From Bacteroidales bacterium (lineage in GTDB: Bacteria > Bacteroidota > Bacteroidia > Bacteroidales > JAAYJT01), in the NCBI GenBank assembly GCA_014860575.1, contig JACZJK010000005.1, forward strand, positions 62,001 to 126,000: a stretch of 64,000 nt of DNA, in the 5' to 3' direction. Positions within the stretch are counted from its first letter, which is position 1; each line of letters begins with the position of its first letter. Position numbers and translations under genes: made by a program. Positions 1,504 to 7,017 of the stretch are shown piece by piece. The notes beneath the pieces were generated by a model, which saw only the letters and a program-made list of their open reading frames with translations, made no database searches and had not been told where the DNA came from.

Positions 1504-2790
1504 ATGGATACCGAACCAATTTCGGAGCTTGCCCTCCACGAGGACAAGCTCCAGGCTGATGACGAACCTCCCAGTTTGTCTGCAAAAGTGAACGGGTTTA
1601 ACCTTCAGCTTGTTAAACCAAATGGCCAATCCCCTAATGGTTCCGGTTCCGGAGCCATTATCCCATCAGAACAATCCCTTGAATTTTTTTACAAATATTA
1701 TCCTTCTGCCAGCTTGAATGACTGGAACGACTGGCGTTGGCAGGTTCGTAATAGCATTAAAAGTGTTGCGGCATTAAAGCAGTTTCTAAATCTAACCAGC
1801 GATGAACTTGCCTGTGATGAAAATGACAAGGTAAATTTGCCAATCAGGATTACACCTTACTACGCCTCGTTGCTTTCCCGCACTGATGAAATGCAGGCCA
1901 TACGCCGTTCTGTAGTACCGGTGAAGGAAGAATTATACATCAGTCCAGGTGAAGATCACGACCCGCTTTGCGAAGAACATTCCAGTCCGGTTCCCAACCT
2001 GGTACATCGTTACCCCGACAGGGCACTCTTTCTGATTACAGGCTTTTGCTCCACCTATTGCCGCTATTGCACGCGTTCGCACATGGTTGCGCAGGACGAC
2101 AAGCTGCATCTTGGTAAAAGTGCACTTGAACCGGCTTTCGAATACATCGCTGCCAATCCAGCCATCCGTGATGTATTGCTTTCAGGGGGCGATCCGCTTA
2201 CATTGGGCGACAGTTATATTGATTACGTGCTGAGCCGGCTCCGGGCTATTCCTCATGTTGAAATCATACGCATTGGCACCAAGGTTCCGGTGGTGCTTCC
2301 GCAAAGGATTACCAAAAGCCTGGTTGCTATGCTCAGCAAATATCACCCGCTGTTCATGAGCATTCACTTCACCCATCCCGACGAACTTACACCTGAAGTT
2401 GCCCAGGCTACAGCAAGGCTGGCCAACGCTGGCATTCCACTTGGCAGTCAGACGGTTTTGCTGAAAAGTATCAACGATGAAGTGCAAATCATGAAAAACC
2501 TCATGCAGGGTTTGTTGAAACTCAGGGTCAGACCCTATTATCTTTACCAGTGCGACCCTATTCCTGGTTCAACACATTTCAGGACACCGGTAGAAAAGGG
2601 GCTGGAAATCATTGAAGGGCTCCGGGGTCATACCAGCGGTTATGCCATTCCACATTTTGTGATTGATGCACCCGGAGGCGGCGGCAAAATTCCGCTTCTC
2701 CCTGAGTATTTTCTAGGAAAGGATGAACATGGAAATATCCGTTTGCGAAACTATGAAAACAAGATGTTCACTTATCCGGAAATTGAATAA
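1504..2790 (+). CDS. kamA: Lysine 2,3-aminomutase (radical SAM, PLP)
   Basis: Radical SAM enzyme that moves the alpha-amino group of L-lysine to the beta carbon, giving beta-lysine. Residues 182-189 hold the 4Fe-4S motif CSTYCRYC, SGGDP at 227-231 is the SAM-binding glycine motif, and K395 in APGGGGKIP is the PLP-binding lysine. Counting back from that lysine, D351 (YQCD) and D388 (VIDAP) fall where lysine aminomutases keep the two aspartates that bind the substrate side-chain amine; glutamate 2,3-aminomutases replace them. Length (428 aa) fits the family. A roughly 50-residue low-complexity N-terminal extension precedes the usual WRWQ start of the fold. It is the first gene of a tight operon with acetyltransferases, a deacetylase and peptide-ligase-like enzymes and with no lysine fermentation genes, which points to making beta-lysine for a product rather than degrading lysine. 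Confidence 0.9.
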   Translation: MDTEPISELALHEDKLQADDEPPSLSAKVNGFNLQLVKPNGQSPNGSGSGAIIPSEQSLEFFYKYYPSASLNDWNDWRWQVRNSIKSVAALKQFLNLTSDELACDENDKVNLPIRITPYYASLLSRTDEMQAIRRSVVPVKEELYISPGEDHDPLCEEHSSPVPNLVHRYPDRALFLITGFCSTYCRYCTRSHMVAQDDKLHLGKSALEPAFEYIAANPAIRDVLLSGGDPLTLGDSYIDYVLSRLRAIPHVEIIRIGTKVPVVLPQRITKSLVAMLSKYHPLFMSIHFTHPDELTPEVAQATARLANAGIPLGSQTVLLKSINDEVQIMKNLMQGLLKLRVRPYYLYQCDPIPGSTHFRTPVEKGLEIIEGLRGHTSGYAIPHFVIDAPGGGGKIPLLPEYFLGKDEHGNIRLRNYENKMFTYPEIE

Positions 2791-2793
2791 GCC

Positions 2794-4560
2794 ATGTTTC
2801 GTATCCGGACAATAACCAACGATCTTTATCTGCGGGATAAAGCAGCCATTGAGCAGGTAAAGCAAATCCTTGTTTCGCACTTTCCGGAGGTTGATCCTCA
2901 AAAATTTGATCTTATCCCTGAGCAGTTAAGAAATCCGTTGAAATATAAATTCTCTGTAAGGGTTTTTGTGCTTGAAAACTTCAGCGGATTCGTTAAAGGT
3001 TTTGCCACGCTTTATTATGCCCCGGATATAAATTTCTGCTTCCTCGAGTTTATCGCCACCAGTAAAGATGCTACCTCTGGAGGGGTTGGAAGTGCACTGT
3101 ATGAAAGGGTCAGGGAAGAATCAAAAGAACTTGGAGCACTGGGCTTATTTTTCGAATGTTTACCTGATCATCCTACATTTTGCAAAGATGCTGATCTCAT
3201 TACCAAAAACAAAAAGCGCTTAAAATTCTACGAAAAGTTTGGAGCCAGACCCATCATCAATACCTTATACGAGCTTCCTGTGAACGAAGCCGATACTTGT
3301 CCGCCTTTGCTGGTTTTTGATGATCTGGATCGTCCTGAACCATTGGTTGGTAAAGACCTGAAGAAAATCGTAGCGGCAATACTTGAAAGGAAGTATTCCG
3401 ATTATTGCCCTGCAAGGTACAGGCAAAAAGTGCTTAATTCCATAAAAGACGGGCCAGTGGAGAGAAGGCCATATTTATACCGTAAATCAGAACCTGCAAA
3501 TAAAAACATTGCAGATCTGCTATTGCGGCGCAGGATATTCCTTGTGGTCAACGATAAACATTCAATCCACCATGTCAGGGAAAGGGGTTATGTGGAATCG
3601 CCGGTAAGGATTGAAAGTATCAGGAAAGAGATAAACAAAACCGGTTTGTTTGAGGAAATCAAACCTTTACTTTTTACCGAAGATCATATCCGCAAGGTTC
3701 ATTCATCCGGTCTGGTTAATTATCTTAAGAAAGTTTGCGAAGACCTCAAACCAGGTCAATCGGTTTATCCATATGTTTTCCCGATAAGGAATGCAGCAAA
3801 ACCACCCAAAGACCGCTCAGTAGCTGCTGGTTATTATTGTATAGACACTTTTACTCCAATCAATAAAAACGCCTACCTGGCTGCAAAAAGGGCGGTAGAT
3901 TGCGTAATTACTGCAAGTCAGAAACTTCTTGAGGAACATCCGCTTTCCTATGCTTTGATCAGGCCACCGGGTCATCATTCAGAAAAAAGGGTTTTTGGTG
4001 GGTTTTGTTATTTTAACAATATTGCGGTGGCGGCTAATTTCTTGAGTGAATACGGTAAAGTGGCTATCCTGGATATTGATTATCACCACGGAAACGGGCA
4101 ACAGGATATTTTTTATCATCGCAGCGATGTGCTCACCATTTCTATCCACGGTCATCCATCATTTGCATATCCGTATTTTACTGGTTTTGACGACGAAAAA
4201 GGAACCGGCGATGGAACCGGTTTCAACATCAATTATCCATTACCGGAAATATGCACAACGGCAGCTTATCATGAAACTCTTTTAAAAGCACTTAAAAAGA
4301 TAAAAACCTTCAGTCCGCGTTTTTTACTGGTTTCACTGGGCTTTGATATAGCAAAAGGTGACCCGACCGGAACATGGAGTTTTACAGCTCCTGATTTTTA
4401 TAGGAACGGTCAGTTGATTGGCCAAATGAAGTTTCCAACGCTGGTTGTTCAGGAAGGGGGTTATAAAAATGTATCGCTTGGCATCAATGCCCGGCACTTT
4501 TTCAAAGGCCTGTGGGATGGGAGGTTTTCAAACAATACAACTGCTAATCACATAAAATGA
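2794..4560 (+). CDS. GNAT acetyltransferase fused to acetylpolyamine-type deacetylase
   Basis: Two-domain protein starting 3 bases after kamA. Residues 1-165 look like a GNAT N-acetyltransferase, with an acetyl-CoA-binding GGVGSALYERV segment near 96-106. Residues 248-575 are a zinc-dependent deacetylase of the histone deacetylase/acetylpolyamine amidohydrolase superfamily. The catalytic set looks complete: H394-H395 (PPGHH), zinc ligands D429 and H431 (DIDYHHGNG) and D518 (SLGFD), and Y557 (QEGGY). HGHPSFAYPYFTGF and the glycine-rich stretch after it resemble acetylpolyamine amidohydrolases rather than histone-type enzymes, suggesting a small acetylated amine substrate. One polypeptide could both add and remove an acetyl group. 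Its stop overlaps the next start (ATGA at 4557), so translation is probably coupled. The precise substrate is inference; acetyl-beta-lysine is the obvious candidate. Confidence 0.85.
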   Translation: MFRIRTITNDLYLRDKAAIEQVKQILVSHFPEVDPQKFDLIPEQLRNPLKYKFSVRVFVLENFSGFVKGFATLYYAPDINFCFLEFIATSKDATSGGVGSALYERVREESKELGALGLFFECLPDHPTFCKDADLITKNKKRLKFYEKFGARPIINTLYELPVNEADTCPPLLVFDDLDRPEPLVGKDLKKIVAAILERKYSDYCPARYRQKVLNSIKDGPVERRPYLYRKSEPANKNIADLLLRRRIFLVVNDKHSIHHVRERGYVESPVRIESIRKEINKTGLFEEIKPLLFTEDHIRKVHSSGLVNYLKKVCEDLKPGQSVYPYVFPIRNAAKPPKDRSVAAGYYCIDTFTPINKNAYLAAKRAVDCVITASQKLLEEHPLSYALIRPPGHHSEKRVFGGFCYFNNIAVAANFLSEYGKVAILDIDYHHGNGQQDIFYHRSDVLTISIHGHPSFAYPYFTGFDDEKGTGDGTGFNINYPLPEICTTAAYHETLLKALKKIKTFSPRFLLVSLGFDIAKGDPTGTWSFTAPDFYRNGQLIGQMKFPTLVVQEGGYKNVSLGINARHFFKGLWDGRFSNNTTANHIK

Positions 4561-5540
4561 AAATAGGTCTCACATTTGATTTAAAAACCACTTATTTGCA
4601 ACAGGGTTTCTCACATGAGGAAGTGGCTGAATTTGATTCGGAAGAAACCATCGCCGGCATTGAATCAACCCTGAATGAATTGGGTTATCAAACCGAAAGG
4701 ATTGGAAATATTGTGGAACTTACGCAAGCTTTGGTTTCGGGAAAGTGCTGGGATTTGGTGTTTAATATTGCCGAAGGTTATTACGGCATTGGGCGCGAAG
4801 CCCAGGTTCCTGCATTGCTTGATGCATTCCGCATTCCCTATGTTTTTTCTGATCCCATGGTGCTTTCACTTACGCTTCACAAGGCTATGGCCAAGCATGT
4901 GATTCGTGGAAATGGAATCCCAACTGCTGCTTTTGTGGTCGTAAAAAATGAAAAGGATTTAGAAAACATCAACCTGGAGTATCCATTGTTTATCAAACCT
5001 GTGGCTGAAGGAACCGGGAAAGGAATATCGCAAAAATCTCTTGTAACCAATCGTATGGATCTTGAGTTGAATGCAAAAGAACTCCTGGATAAATTCAAAC
5101 AGCCCGTGTTGGTTGAAGAATACCTTCCGGGAAGGGAATTTACTGTTGGAATAACCGGCACCGGAAACGAAGCTGCACCATGCGGAATCATGGAAGTGAT
5201 AGTGTACGGGAAAATTGAAGAACAGGTTTATTCACTGCAAAACAAAGAAGAGTATGAATCAAGGGTCGCATATTCCATTCCTGAAAAATCAATTACTGAA
5301 TACTGTTACGATGTTGCGTTAAGATCCTGGAATGCATTGGAATGCCGCGATGGAGGCCGTGTTGATCTGCGGCTCGATAAAAATGGCGTTCCAAATTTTA
5401 TAGAAGTCAACCCGCTCGCGGGCTTGAACCCAATCCATTCTGATCTACCGATTTTATGCAAGTTGAACGGAATTTCTTACAAGGATCTGATTGGCATGAT
5501 TATGCAATCAGCCTTGAAACGCATCAATAACCATCCATAA
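4557..5540 (+). CDS. D-Ala-D-Ala ligase-like ATP-grasp enzyme (first of pair)
   Basis: ATP-grasp carboxylate-amine ligase of the D-alanine-D-alanine ligase superfamily, 327 aa. The N-terminal substrate lobe has FNIAEGYYGIGREAQ (69-83), the central domain has the ATP-binding lysine in FIKPVAEGTGKG (145-156), and the C-terminal part has EEYLPGREFTVG (187-198), D270 in VDLRLD, and metal ligands E283 and N285 in FIEVNPLAGLNP. Ddl itself normally has GSS where this has GTG. The enzyme would join an amino acid carboxylate to an amine via an acyl phosphate. It overlaps the upstream gene by 4 bases and sits 9 bases before a second ATP-grasp gene, so a cytoplasmic dipeptide or conjugate is likely. A cell-wall Ddl role is unlikely because no mur genes are near. 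Confidence 0.8.
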   Translation: MKIGLTFDLKTTYLQQGFSHEEVAEFDSEETIAGIESTLNELGYQTERIGNIVELTQALVSGKCWDLVFNIAEGYYGIGREAQVPALLDAFRIPYVFSDPMVLSLTLHKAMAKHVIRGNGIPTAAFVVVKNEKDLENINLEYPLFIKPVAEGTGKGISQKSLVTNRMDLELNAKELLDKFKQPVLVEEYLPGREFTVGITGTGNEAAPCGIMEVIVYGKIEEQVYSLQNKEEYESRVAYSIPEKSITEYCYDVALRSWNALECRDGGRVDLRLDKNGVPNFIEVNPLAGLNPIHSDLPILCKLNGISYKDLIGMIMQSALKRINNHP

Positions 5541-5549
5541 CCACTGGGC

Positions 5550-6542
5550 ATGCCAACAGCACTGATTTTTCATAGTAAACTCGGACCCAATCCACCGCCA
5601 GATGAACTGGATGTGCTGGACGAAGCAAAATATTTTAGGGACGGATTAGCCACATTGGGCTACGAGGTTCATCAATTTGATTTTGAAAATGACCTCGACA
5701 GGAACATTGATCAAATCAATTTAATGCAAGCTGATTTCGTTGTGAATCTGGTTGAAACAATCAATGCCGATGGCCGCCTCATTCATATTGCACCGGCATT
5801 TTTTGAGCATCATGCCATCCCATTCACTGGTTGCCCATCCGAAGCCATTTATGTTACCAGCAACAAGTTGCTTTCAAAGAAGATAATGCAACTTGCAGGA
5901 ATAAAAACTCCAGCATTTTCAATCAATCCTGACGAACTAAAATCACGGTTCAGCGGTCAGCAATTCCTTTTAAAGTCGCTTTGGGAACATGCGTCATTTG
6001 GTATGGATGAACACAACCCGGTTTTTATCGGAAATGCTGAAATCATTGCTGAGAGCCTTACAGAGAAAAACAAGCAACACAACACATATTTTGCTGAAGA
6101 ATACATCGAAGGGCGTGAATTCAATGTTTCGGTGATAGCCGGAAAGAATGGGCCAATGGTGCTACCCATCGCCGAAATCAAATTCATCAATTACCCTGAT
6201 GCGAAACCTAAAATTGTGGGCTACCGCGCCAAATGGGATGAAGCATCTTTTGAGTATAAAAATACCGTCAGGCATTTTGTTGACGAAACCGCAGAACCCG
6301 ATCTTTGTGGTCGCATCAGGAAAATATGCCTGCAATGCTGGAAAGAATTCAGCTTAAAAGGTTACGTGAGGGTTGATTTCAGGATGGATGTAAACGGCCA
6401 ACTTTATGTGCTTGAAATAAACGCCAACCCGTGCATTTCGGCTGATAGCGGATTTGTGGCAGCCGCAACGGTACAAGGCCTGTCGCAGGCTGAGATAGTC
6501 AACTTAATTATTAACGATTTAAGTGGGAGCAATGAAAAATAA
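5550..6542 (+). CDS. Divergent D-Ala-D-Ala ligase-like ATP-grasp enzyme (second of pair)
   Basis: Second ATP-grasp protein, 330 aa, with the same order of elements but more divergent. N-terminal lobe: FVVNLVETINADGR (63-76), where Ddl proteins have the FN..EG...E motif. ATP-binding region: LLKSLWEHASFGMD (140-153), where the usual KPxxxGSSxG loop is not recognisable although a lysine (K142) is kept. C-terminal: EEYIEGREFNVSV (183-195), VDFRMD (275-280) and metal ligands E289 and N291/N293 in LEINANPC. It probably couples a different acid or amine from its neighbour. It ends 11 bases inside the next gene, consistent with one transcript. It could instead be a regulatory or inactive partner of the first ligase; the retained C-terminal metal residues argue for activity. 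Confidence 0.75.
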   Translation: MPTALIFHSKLGPNPPPDELDVLDEAKYFRDGLATLGYEVHQFDFENDLDRNIDQINLMQADFVVNLVETINADGRLIHIAPAFFEHHAIPFTGCPSEAIYVTSNKLLSKKIMQLAGIKTPAFSINPDELKSRFSGQQFLLKSLWEHASFGMDEHNPVFIGNAEIIAESLTEKNKQHNTYFAEEYIEGREFNVSVIAGKNGPMVLPIAEIKFINYPDAKPKIVGYRAKWDEASFEYKNTVRHFVDETAEPDLCGRIRKICLQCWKEFSLKGYVRVDFRMDVNGQLYVLEINANPCISADSGFVAAATVQGLSQAEIVNLIINDLSGSNEK

Positions 6543-7017
6543 TATAATAATCCGTTCTGTGGTGAAGCCTGAAGATGTGGAATACGTCAGGGAAATAGTA
6601 ACATCCACAAATTTTTTCCATAGCTATGAGATTGATGTTGCCGTTGAATTGATTGAAGAGACTCTCAACAAAGGCAACGAGAGCGGATACAGTTTCCTTT
6701 TTGCTGAAGTTGATGGTAAACCAGTTGCCTACAGTTGTTTCGGGTTAATTCCGTGTACTAAGTCAAGTTATGATCTGTATTGGATCGTGGTTCACCATGA
6801 TTTTCGTGGTCACGGAATTGGAAAAAAATTATTGGAATTAACTGAACAGGCCGCAAGGGAAATTGGTGGTTCGGGCATATATGCCGAAACCTCCTCGCAA
6901 CCATTATACGAACCTACCCGTCGGTTTTATATTTCCAATAATTATATCGAAGAAGCCCGACTGAAGGATTTTTACAATCTTCGAGATGATAAGTTGGTGT
7001 ATTCCAAGCGTTTGTAA
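6532..7017 (+). CDS. GNAT family N-acetyltransferase
   Basis: Stand-alone GNAT acetyltransferase of 161 aa. The acetyl-CoA pyrophosphate loop is visible as HHDFRGHGIGKKLLE (motif RGHGIG), followed by a C-terminal FYISNNYIEEARLKDFY segment typical of the last strand-helix unit. I prefer ATG 6532 over the in-frame GTG 6523 because ATG follows a GGGAG (6525-6529) and keeps only an 11-base overlap with the upstream ligase. As last gene of the kamA operon it could acetylate the beta-lysine-derived product, as AblB does to beta-lysine in methanogens and Bacillus, although clear similarity to AblB cannot be claimed by eye. Confidence 0.8.
   Translation: MKNNIIIRSVVKPEDVEYVREIVTSTNFFHSYEIDVAVELIEETLNKGNESGYSFLFAEVDGKPVAYSCFGLIPCTKSSYDLYWIVVHHDFRGHGIGKKLLELTEQAAREIGGSGIYAETSSQPLYEPTRRFYISNNYIEEARLKDFYNLRDDKLVYSKRL

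Follow-up and report, generated by a model that had tools for sequence, protein, structure and literature searches.

Opposing acetylation and deacetylation is represented by AcuA/AcuC, a separate GNAT acetyltransferase and class I type deacetylase that act on acetyl-CoA synthetase, while the combination of a GNAT with ATP-grasp ligation is represented by the compact cassette for the osmolyte NAGGN (N-acetylglutaminylglutamine amide). In the acetylpolyamine amidohydrolase (APAH) of Mycoplana ramosa, E106 and E117 are the polyamine-recognition residues (PMC5454378, PMC11532494); the PIS motif sits at the APAH active-site rim (PMC11532494, PMC5454378), and Graf et al. connect the motifs RPPGHH and EGGY with acetyl, not longer acyl, groups (PMC11532494). 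In beta-lysine, it is the beta-amine that streptothricin acetyltransferases acetylate (PMC11702664). Herein we analyse a fusion of an acetyltransferase to a deacetylase in a Bacteroidales genome, within a stretch of 64,000 nucleotides that we refer to as the window.

A GNAT-deacetylase fusion in a compact operon

A preliminary description of the window had placed an acetyltransferase joined to a deacetylase at positions 2794..4560 of the forward strand, and this is confirmed by an intact open reading frame (ORF) of 588 aa with an ATG start and a TGA stop, by Pfam and by AlphaFold2 models. All gene calls used here are mechanical ORFs. The fusion is the second of five tightly packed, collinear and overlapping genes on the + strand, ordered KamA, fusion, ATP-grasp 1, ATP-grasp 2 and GNAT2, with uvrC and hemD-like genes on the flanks of the operon. 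The first gene encodes a KamA-type lysine 2,3-aminomutase (1504..2790, 428 aa), whose stop codon is followed after 3 bp by the start of the fusion, and the TGA of the fusion in turn overlaps the ATG of the first of two paralogous D-Ala-D-Ala-ligase-like ATP-grasp ligases (ATP-grasp 1, 4557..5540, PF07478 E 1.3e-26; ATP-grasp 2, 5550..6542, PF07478 E 1.1e-16). D-Ala-D-Ala ligase models score below their own cut-offs on ATP-grasp 1. The last gene is a second, stand-alone GNAT (GNAT2, 6532..7017, PF00583 E 6e-13). Searches against anti-phage and phage families gave no match.

The KamA neighbour carries most of the information on a possible substrate. It matches TIGR00238 (348 bits, above its cut-off) and scores 468 bits against the AblA equivalog model TIGR03820, which is below the cut-off of 525, and its solved relative is 2A5H (E 4e-126). 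In the Clostridium enzyme of that structure, we take R134, D293 and D330 to be the residues that hold lysine and K337 to be the PLP lysine. The equivalents of all four, together with the [4Fe-4S] cysteines that form the radical SAM triad, are kept in the window's KamA and are invariant in 37 sequences, so that the protein has the features of a lysine 2,3-aminomutase. Because the lysine-binding residues are kept, beta-lysine is likely the building block of the pathway. The same conservation in an adjoining gene makes a lysine or beta-lysine derivative, as already suggested in the preliminary description, the best guess for the substrate of the fusion.

Judged from their enzyme families, KamA would convert L-lysine to beta-lysine, the two ATP-grasp enzymes would form amide bonds between beta-lysine and one or more partner amino acids, and GNAT2 would acetylate one amine. 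The gene set thus looks built for the production of a small compound from beta-lysine.

Both halves of the fusion retain conserved active sites

Residue conservation was counted over 75 full-length relatives of the fusion from many phyla. The domain search proposed in the preliminary description finds both halves, the deacetylase strongly (Hist_deacetyl PF00850, residues 267-572, 3592..4509, E 5.7e-73) and the acetyltransferase more weakly (PF00583, residues 21-150, 23.6 bits vs a cut-off of 20.7); PF13508 scores 24.3 bits on the latter, below its cut-off of 27. The GNAT half (residues ~1-183, 2794..3342) is supported by Pfam, the AlphaFold2 model, Foldseek and VIA-align. Its GNAT fold is seen in a model of this half alone (mean pLDDT 92.7), which aligns to GNAT structures with Z ~15 over ~150-170 residues (VIA-align) and has a best Foldseek E of 8e-9.

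Loss of the residues that bind acetyl-CoA had been named beforehand as a sign that would speak against two opposing activities in one chain. Within the acetyl-CoA loop (TSGGVG, residues 94-99, 3073..3090), the G97-x-G99 part of the GNAT motif Q/R-x-x-G-x-G/A is invariant in all 75 relatives, whereas the usual leading Q/R is not kept and position 94 is mostly T. Two further features are conserved to a similar degree, namely a family signature ECLPD (residues 121-125, 3154..3168; E121, C122, P124 and D125 invariant, L in 74/75) and Y146 (3229..3231) in the motif N-x2-RL-x-FYE, which is invariant in the 75 and, from what is known of the GNAT family, presumably occupies the position of the general-acid tyrosine. 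The halves are joined by a conserved helical segment (residues 184-235, 3343..3498), with model helices at 186-200 and 207-215. By sequence profile, the top solved relative of the GNAT half is 3PP9, a putative streptothricin acetyltransferase, at a weak E of 0.0069 that lies near noise and offers a hint of substrate only. The choice of a substrate by structure was rejected, with GCN5, RimI, aminoglycoside and tandem clavulanate GNATs tied.

In the deacetylase half, the residues named in the preliminary description are correct and invariant in the 75 relatives: the catalytic pair H394-H395 of RPPGHH (3973..3978), the zinc ligands D429 and H431 (4078..4086) and D518 (4345..4347), and the transition-state tyrosine Y557 of EGGY (4462..4464). 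The half thereby has the His pair, Asp-His-Asp zinc site and Tyr of the Zn-dependent HDAC/APAH superfamily in 75/75 sequences, and both the RPPGHH and EGGY motifs are invariant as a whole. Both active sites of the fusion are therefore intact and conserved.

The full-chain AlphaFold2 model (pLDDT 87.9, pTM 0.87) matches APAH structures at E ~1e-29 and is closer to them (TM 0.87-0.88, scaled to target length) than to class II HDACs (~0.75), which agrees with the APAH type assigned beforehand. That resemblance had also been read as a clue to the substrate, and here the fold and motifs stand but the polyamine-recognition positions do not. E106 of the M. ramosa enzyme aligns with S342 (S in 33, P in 17, A in 10 and E in 3 of the 75), E117 aligns with F353 (Phe in 75/75), and the PIS motif is replaced by an invariant PTG. 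These replacements make a polyamine substrate less likely, though the E106 position is variable among true polyamine enzymes too. A single chain that both acetylates and deacetylates polyamines is in our view very improbable, although the nearest solved structures are acetylpolyamine amidohydrolases, and a beta-lysine derivative would be the likelier substrate.

The structural affinity to APAH also bears on a protein acetylation switch, in which the fusion would act in the way that AcuA/AcuC control acetyl-CoA synthetase. An APAH-type enzyme does deacetylate acetylated acetyl-CoA synthetase in vitro (PMC11532494), but the deacetylase half is nearest to APAH by structure, and the gene partners of the fusion are small-molecule enzymes in many phyla, which together make such a switch improbable.

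Spread and origin of the fusion

A single scan of 84,980 species genomes retrieved 318 candidate stretches, and the best 80 of these 318 are all full-length fusions that cover nearly the whole query, which argues against a chance fusion. According to their record labels, the relatives belong to Bacteroidota, Deltaproteobacteria, Calditrichota, KSB1, Acidobacteria, Aminicenantes, Chloroflexota, Alphaproteobacteria and others, and their source genomes are mostly metagenome bins. Two named isolates carry the fusion: Desulfacinum infernum DSM 9756, which has all five operon genes (L087), and Desulfoferrobacter suflitae, in which the fusion is without partners within 7 kb (L051). In a quick tree, the deacetylase halves of the fusions group as a single clade apart from their unfused counterparts (SH-aLRT 99), and the fusion arose once. 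Across 295 genomes of the window's order, the GNAT half is found in fused form only, except for one remote GNAT of 184 residues. The single clade, taken with the catalytic residues invariant in 75 relatives, indicates a real and maintained two-activity enzyme rather than a local fusion.

Several loci show further variation in architecture. GNAT-deacetylase-GNAT2 triple fusions of 753-771 aa occur at six loci (L069, L074, L097, L098, L103 and L110), and their C-terminal GNAT is 42-47% identical to the window's GNAT2. At L215:5906-9060 (genome G345), an ORF in which an ATP-grasp of the D-Ala-ligase type is fused to a peptidase of family S58 directly precedes an APAH-type deacetylase, which is the closest unfused relative in the tree. 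We take S58 to be the family of beta-aminopeptidases, and this ORF is possibly another link to beta-peptides. On a Shinella plasmid (L204:2270-6110), genes for an amino acid ABC transporter, an aminotransferase, a 3-keto-5-aminohexanoate cleavage protein, a GNAT and an APAH-type deacetylase stand in a row suggestive of a catabolic route for an acetylated beta-amino acid or diamine. That GNAT was considered as part of a split fusion and rejected, since it shows no clear similarity to the GNAT half of the fusion (E 3.0 by BLASTP, 6.7% by profile).

The fusion is an accessory to a probable beta-lysine ligase core

We then related the fusion to the other genes of the operon across genomes. KamA and ATP-grasp 1 lie within ~7 kb of the fusion at 37/80 loci (the best 80 of 318) in several gene orders, the commonest being KamA-grasp 1-grasp 2-fusion-GNAT2 and the order seen in the window (KamA-fusion-grasp 1-grasp 2-GNAT2). 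Where the fusion is unlinked, an ATP-grasp ligase or a variant cluster is present elsewhere in 27/30 genomes. For example, KamA and ATP-grasp genes were found in 10/10 genomes that carry the fusion within the order and phylum of the window, six of which have the core cluster away from the fusion, and ATP-grasp 1 was found at 48-60% identity in 19 of 24 unlinked-fusion genomes from many phyla; two of the 24 carry a variant KamA-GNAT2-grasp-grasp cluster instead, and in the remaining three the ATP-grasp 1 match is weak or absent in bins that are possibly incomplete.

The fusion thus co-occurs with the pathway. Within the order, ATP-grasp 1 is present in 33 of the 295 genomes, and these include all nine that have the full fusion (hypergeometric p ~9e-10, calculated over related genomes that are not independent). 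The other 24 of the 33, however, have ATP-grasp 1 but no full fusion, and the core-only loci listed mostly have KamA, ATP-grasp 1 and ATP-grasp 2, usually also GNAT2, adjacent to one another with no deacetylase in between. Since this core of KamA, two ATP-grasp ligases and GNAT2 is often present without it, the fusion is accessory to the beta-lysine ligase pathway, probably as a tailoring enzyme, and dispensable to the core.

This distribution weighs on the idea of a protected intermediate put forward in the preliminary description, whereby the GNAT half would block one amine of lysine or beta-lysine, the ligases would use the other, and the deacetylase would unblock the first at the end. In other ligase clusters, a GNAT has been proposed to block the lysine epsilon-amine and so steer the formation of the peptide bond (PMC2922099), and the two halves of the fusion are always kept together. 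An essential deprotection should not be optional, however, and no replacement deacetylase was found beside the core among the core-only loci listed. The core without the fusion therefore favours an optional tailoring or turnover step over obligatory deprotection, and we regard the protecting-group chemistry as rather unlikely.

Two observations concern the arrangement of the core. A divergent KamA-grasp-grasp-GNAT cluster, with ATP-grasp ligases ~28-39% identical to those of the window, lies beside the fusion at loci L040, L075, L079, L081, L092, L095, L102, L104, L105 and L115, and one fusion enzyme is therefore common to two cluster types. In genome G473, the fusion operon (L179:4351-8701) is preceded not by a complete KamA but by an ORF that resembles the KamA N-terminal extension, and a KamA of 53% identity lies ~30 kb away on the same contig, so KamA appears to have been displaced.

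Neighbouring genes raise a possible osmotic context. MscS-type channels are the commonest family near unlinked fusion copies, and some of these copies have TrkH-like and Na+/H+ antiporter genes nearby. Loci with MscS-type genes near the fusion include L052, L059, L088, L090, L115, L117 and L118, and at L036:3243-3803 such a gene is directly downstream. With N-epsilon-acetyl-beta-lysine being a known compatible solute (e.g. PMC12776343), these neighbours would suit a turnover enzyme or switch whose halves oppose each other on a single acetyl group as conditions change, and so adjust or recycle an acetylated beta-lysine solute. The enrichment of MscS over distant neighbours is not significant, however (7/110 near vs 3/113 far neighbours, p 0.16), and the full-chain model has no regulatory domain between the two halves, so that we judge this reading unlikely.

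Proposed role of the fusion

For the fusion as a dedicated, optional tailoring enzyme of a beta-lysine-based small-molecule pathway, which resets the acetyl pattern of the product, we see an even chance. The fusion probably adjusts the acetyl groups of an undescribed beta-lysine compound. The substrate, the position of each reaction and an osmotic role we infer. The APAH-type half would deacetylate the epsilon amine, which terminates a straight carbon chain, and the GNAT half would place an acetyl group onto an amine, probably a different one and, at a guess, the beta-amine. In effect, acetyl groups would be shifted or swapped on the completed beta-lysine compound, perhaps tuning its charge if it serves as a compatible solute.

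The preliminary description had proposed a chain that both adds and removes an acetyl group. Both sites are indeed intact, but the two opposed reactions may act on different nitrogens, and acetylation and deacetylation at one site would be a futile cycle that wastes acetyl-CoA unless regulated. A set of two acetyltransferases and one deacetylase is compatible with other schemes too. A further reading, which we put forward tentatively, is a single-chain acetyl-relocating enzyme that strips one amine of its acetyl group and acetylates a second amine of a beta-lysine peptide made by the ligases; such peptides would then represent a widespread, undescribed class of beta-lysine metabolites in many bacterial phyla, possibly compatible solutes. 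Should the product be a solute of the beta-lysine peptide kind, the operon would represent a metabolic pathway that is common in anaerobic and sediment bacteria and has been overlooked.

Comparison with known systems

In the open literature that we searched, no description of the fusion was found. Likewise, the open-access literature yielded no description of the four-gene beta-lysine/ATP-grasp core and no report of KamA together with ATP-grasp and a deacetylase, for which an earlier mention is possible. The individual enzyme families are known, and it is the chain with both sites strictly conserved across phyla that appears undescribed in that literature.

The deacetylase domain of the fusion is 33-36% identical to APAHs (Mycoplana ramosa 3Q9B, Marinobacter 6PHR; cluster 4 of Graf et al. 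2024) and shares their fold, zinc and catalytic residues and the RPPGHH and EGGY motifs. Unlike them, it stands behind a GNAT, has E106, E117 and PIS replaced, and has beta-lysine and ligase genes as genomic partners. Cluster 4 enzymes are further characterised by head-to-head dimers and by polyamine deacetylation. AcuA/AcuC likewise pair an acetyltransferase with an opposing deacetylase, but do so as separate proteins on a protein substrate, whereas the fusion is one APAH-type chain in a small-molecule operon. The streptothricin and nourseothricin acetyltransferases (3PP9, 5C82, 7YPU) include the top, though weak, profile relative of the GNAT half; they are stand-alone resistance enzymes, and the likeness of the fusion to them (E 0.0069) comes without a structural preference. 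The NAGGN cassette resembles the window operon in being compact and in combining a GNAT with ATP-grasp ligation, and differs in its amino acid and in having neither KamA nor a deacetylase. The AblA/AblB pathway to N-epsilon-acetyl-beta-lysine likewise combines a lysine 2,3-aminomutase with a GNAT acetyltransferase. AblB was not among the profile matches of the fusion or GNAT2 (E up to 0.01, in a set of models that may not include AblB), and the window operon departs from that pathway in a KamA that scores below the AblA cut-off and in the addition of two ATP-grasp ligases and a deacetylase.
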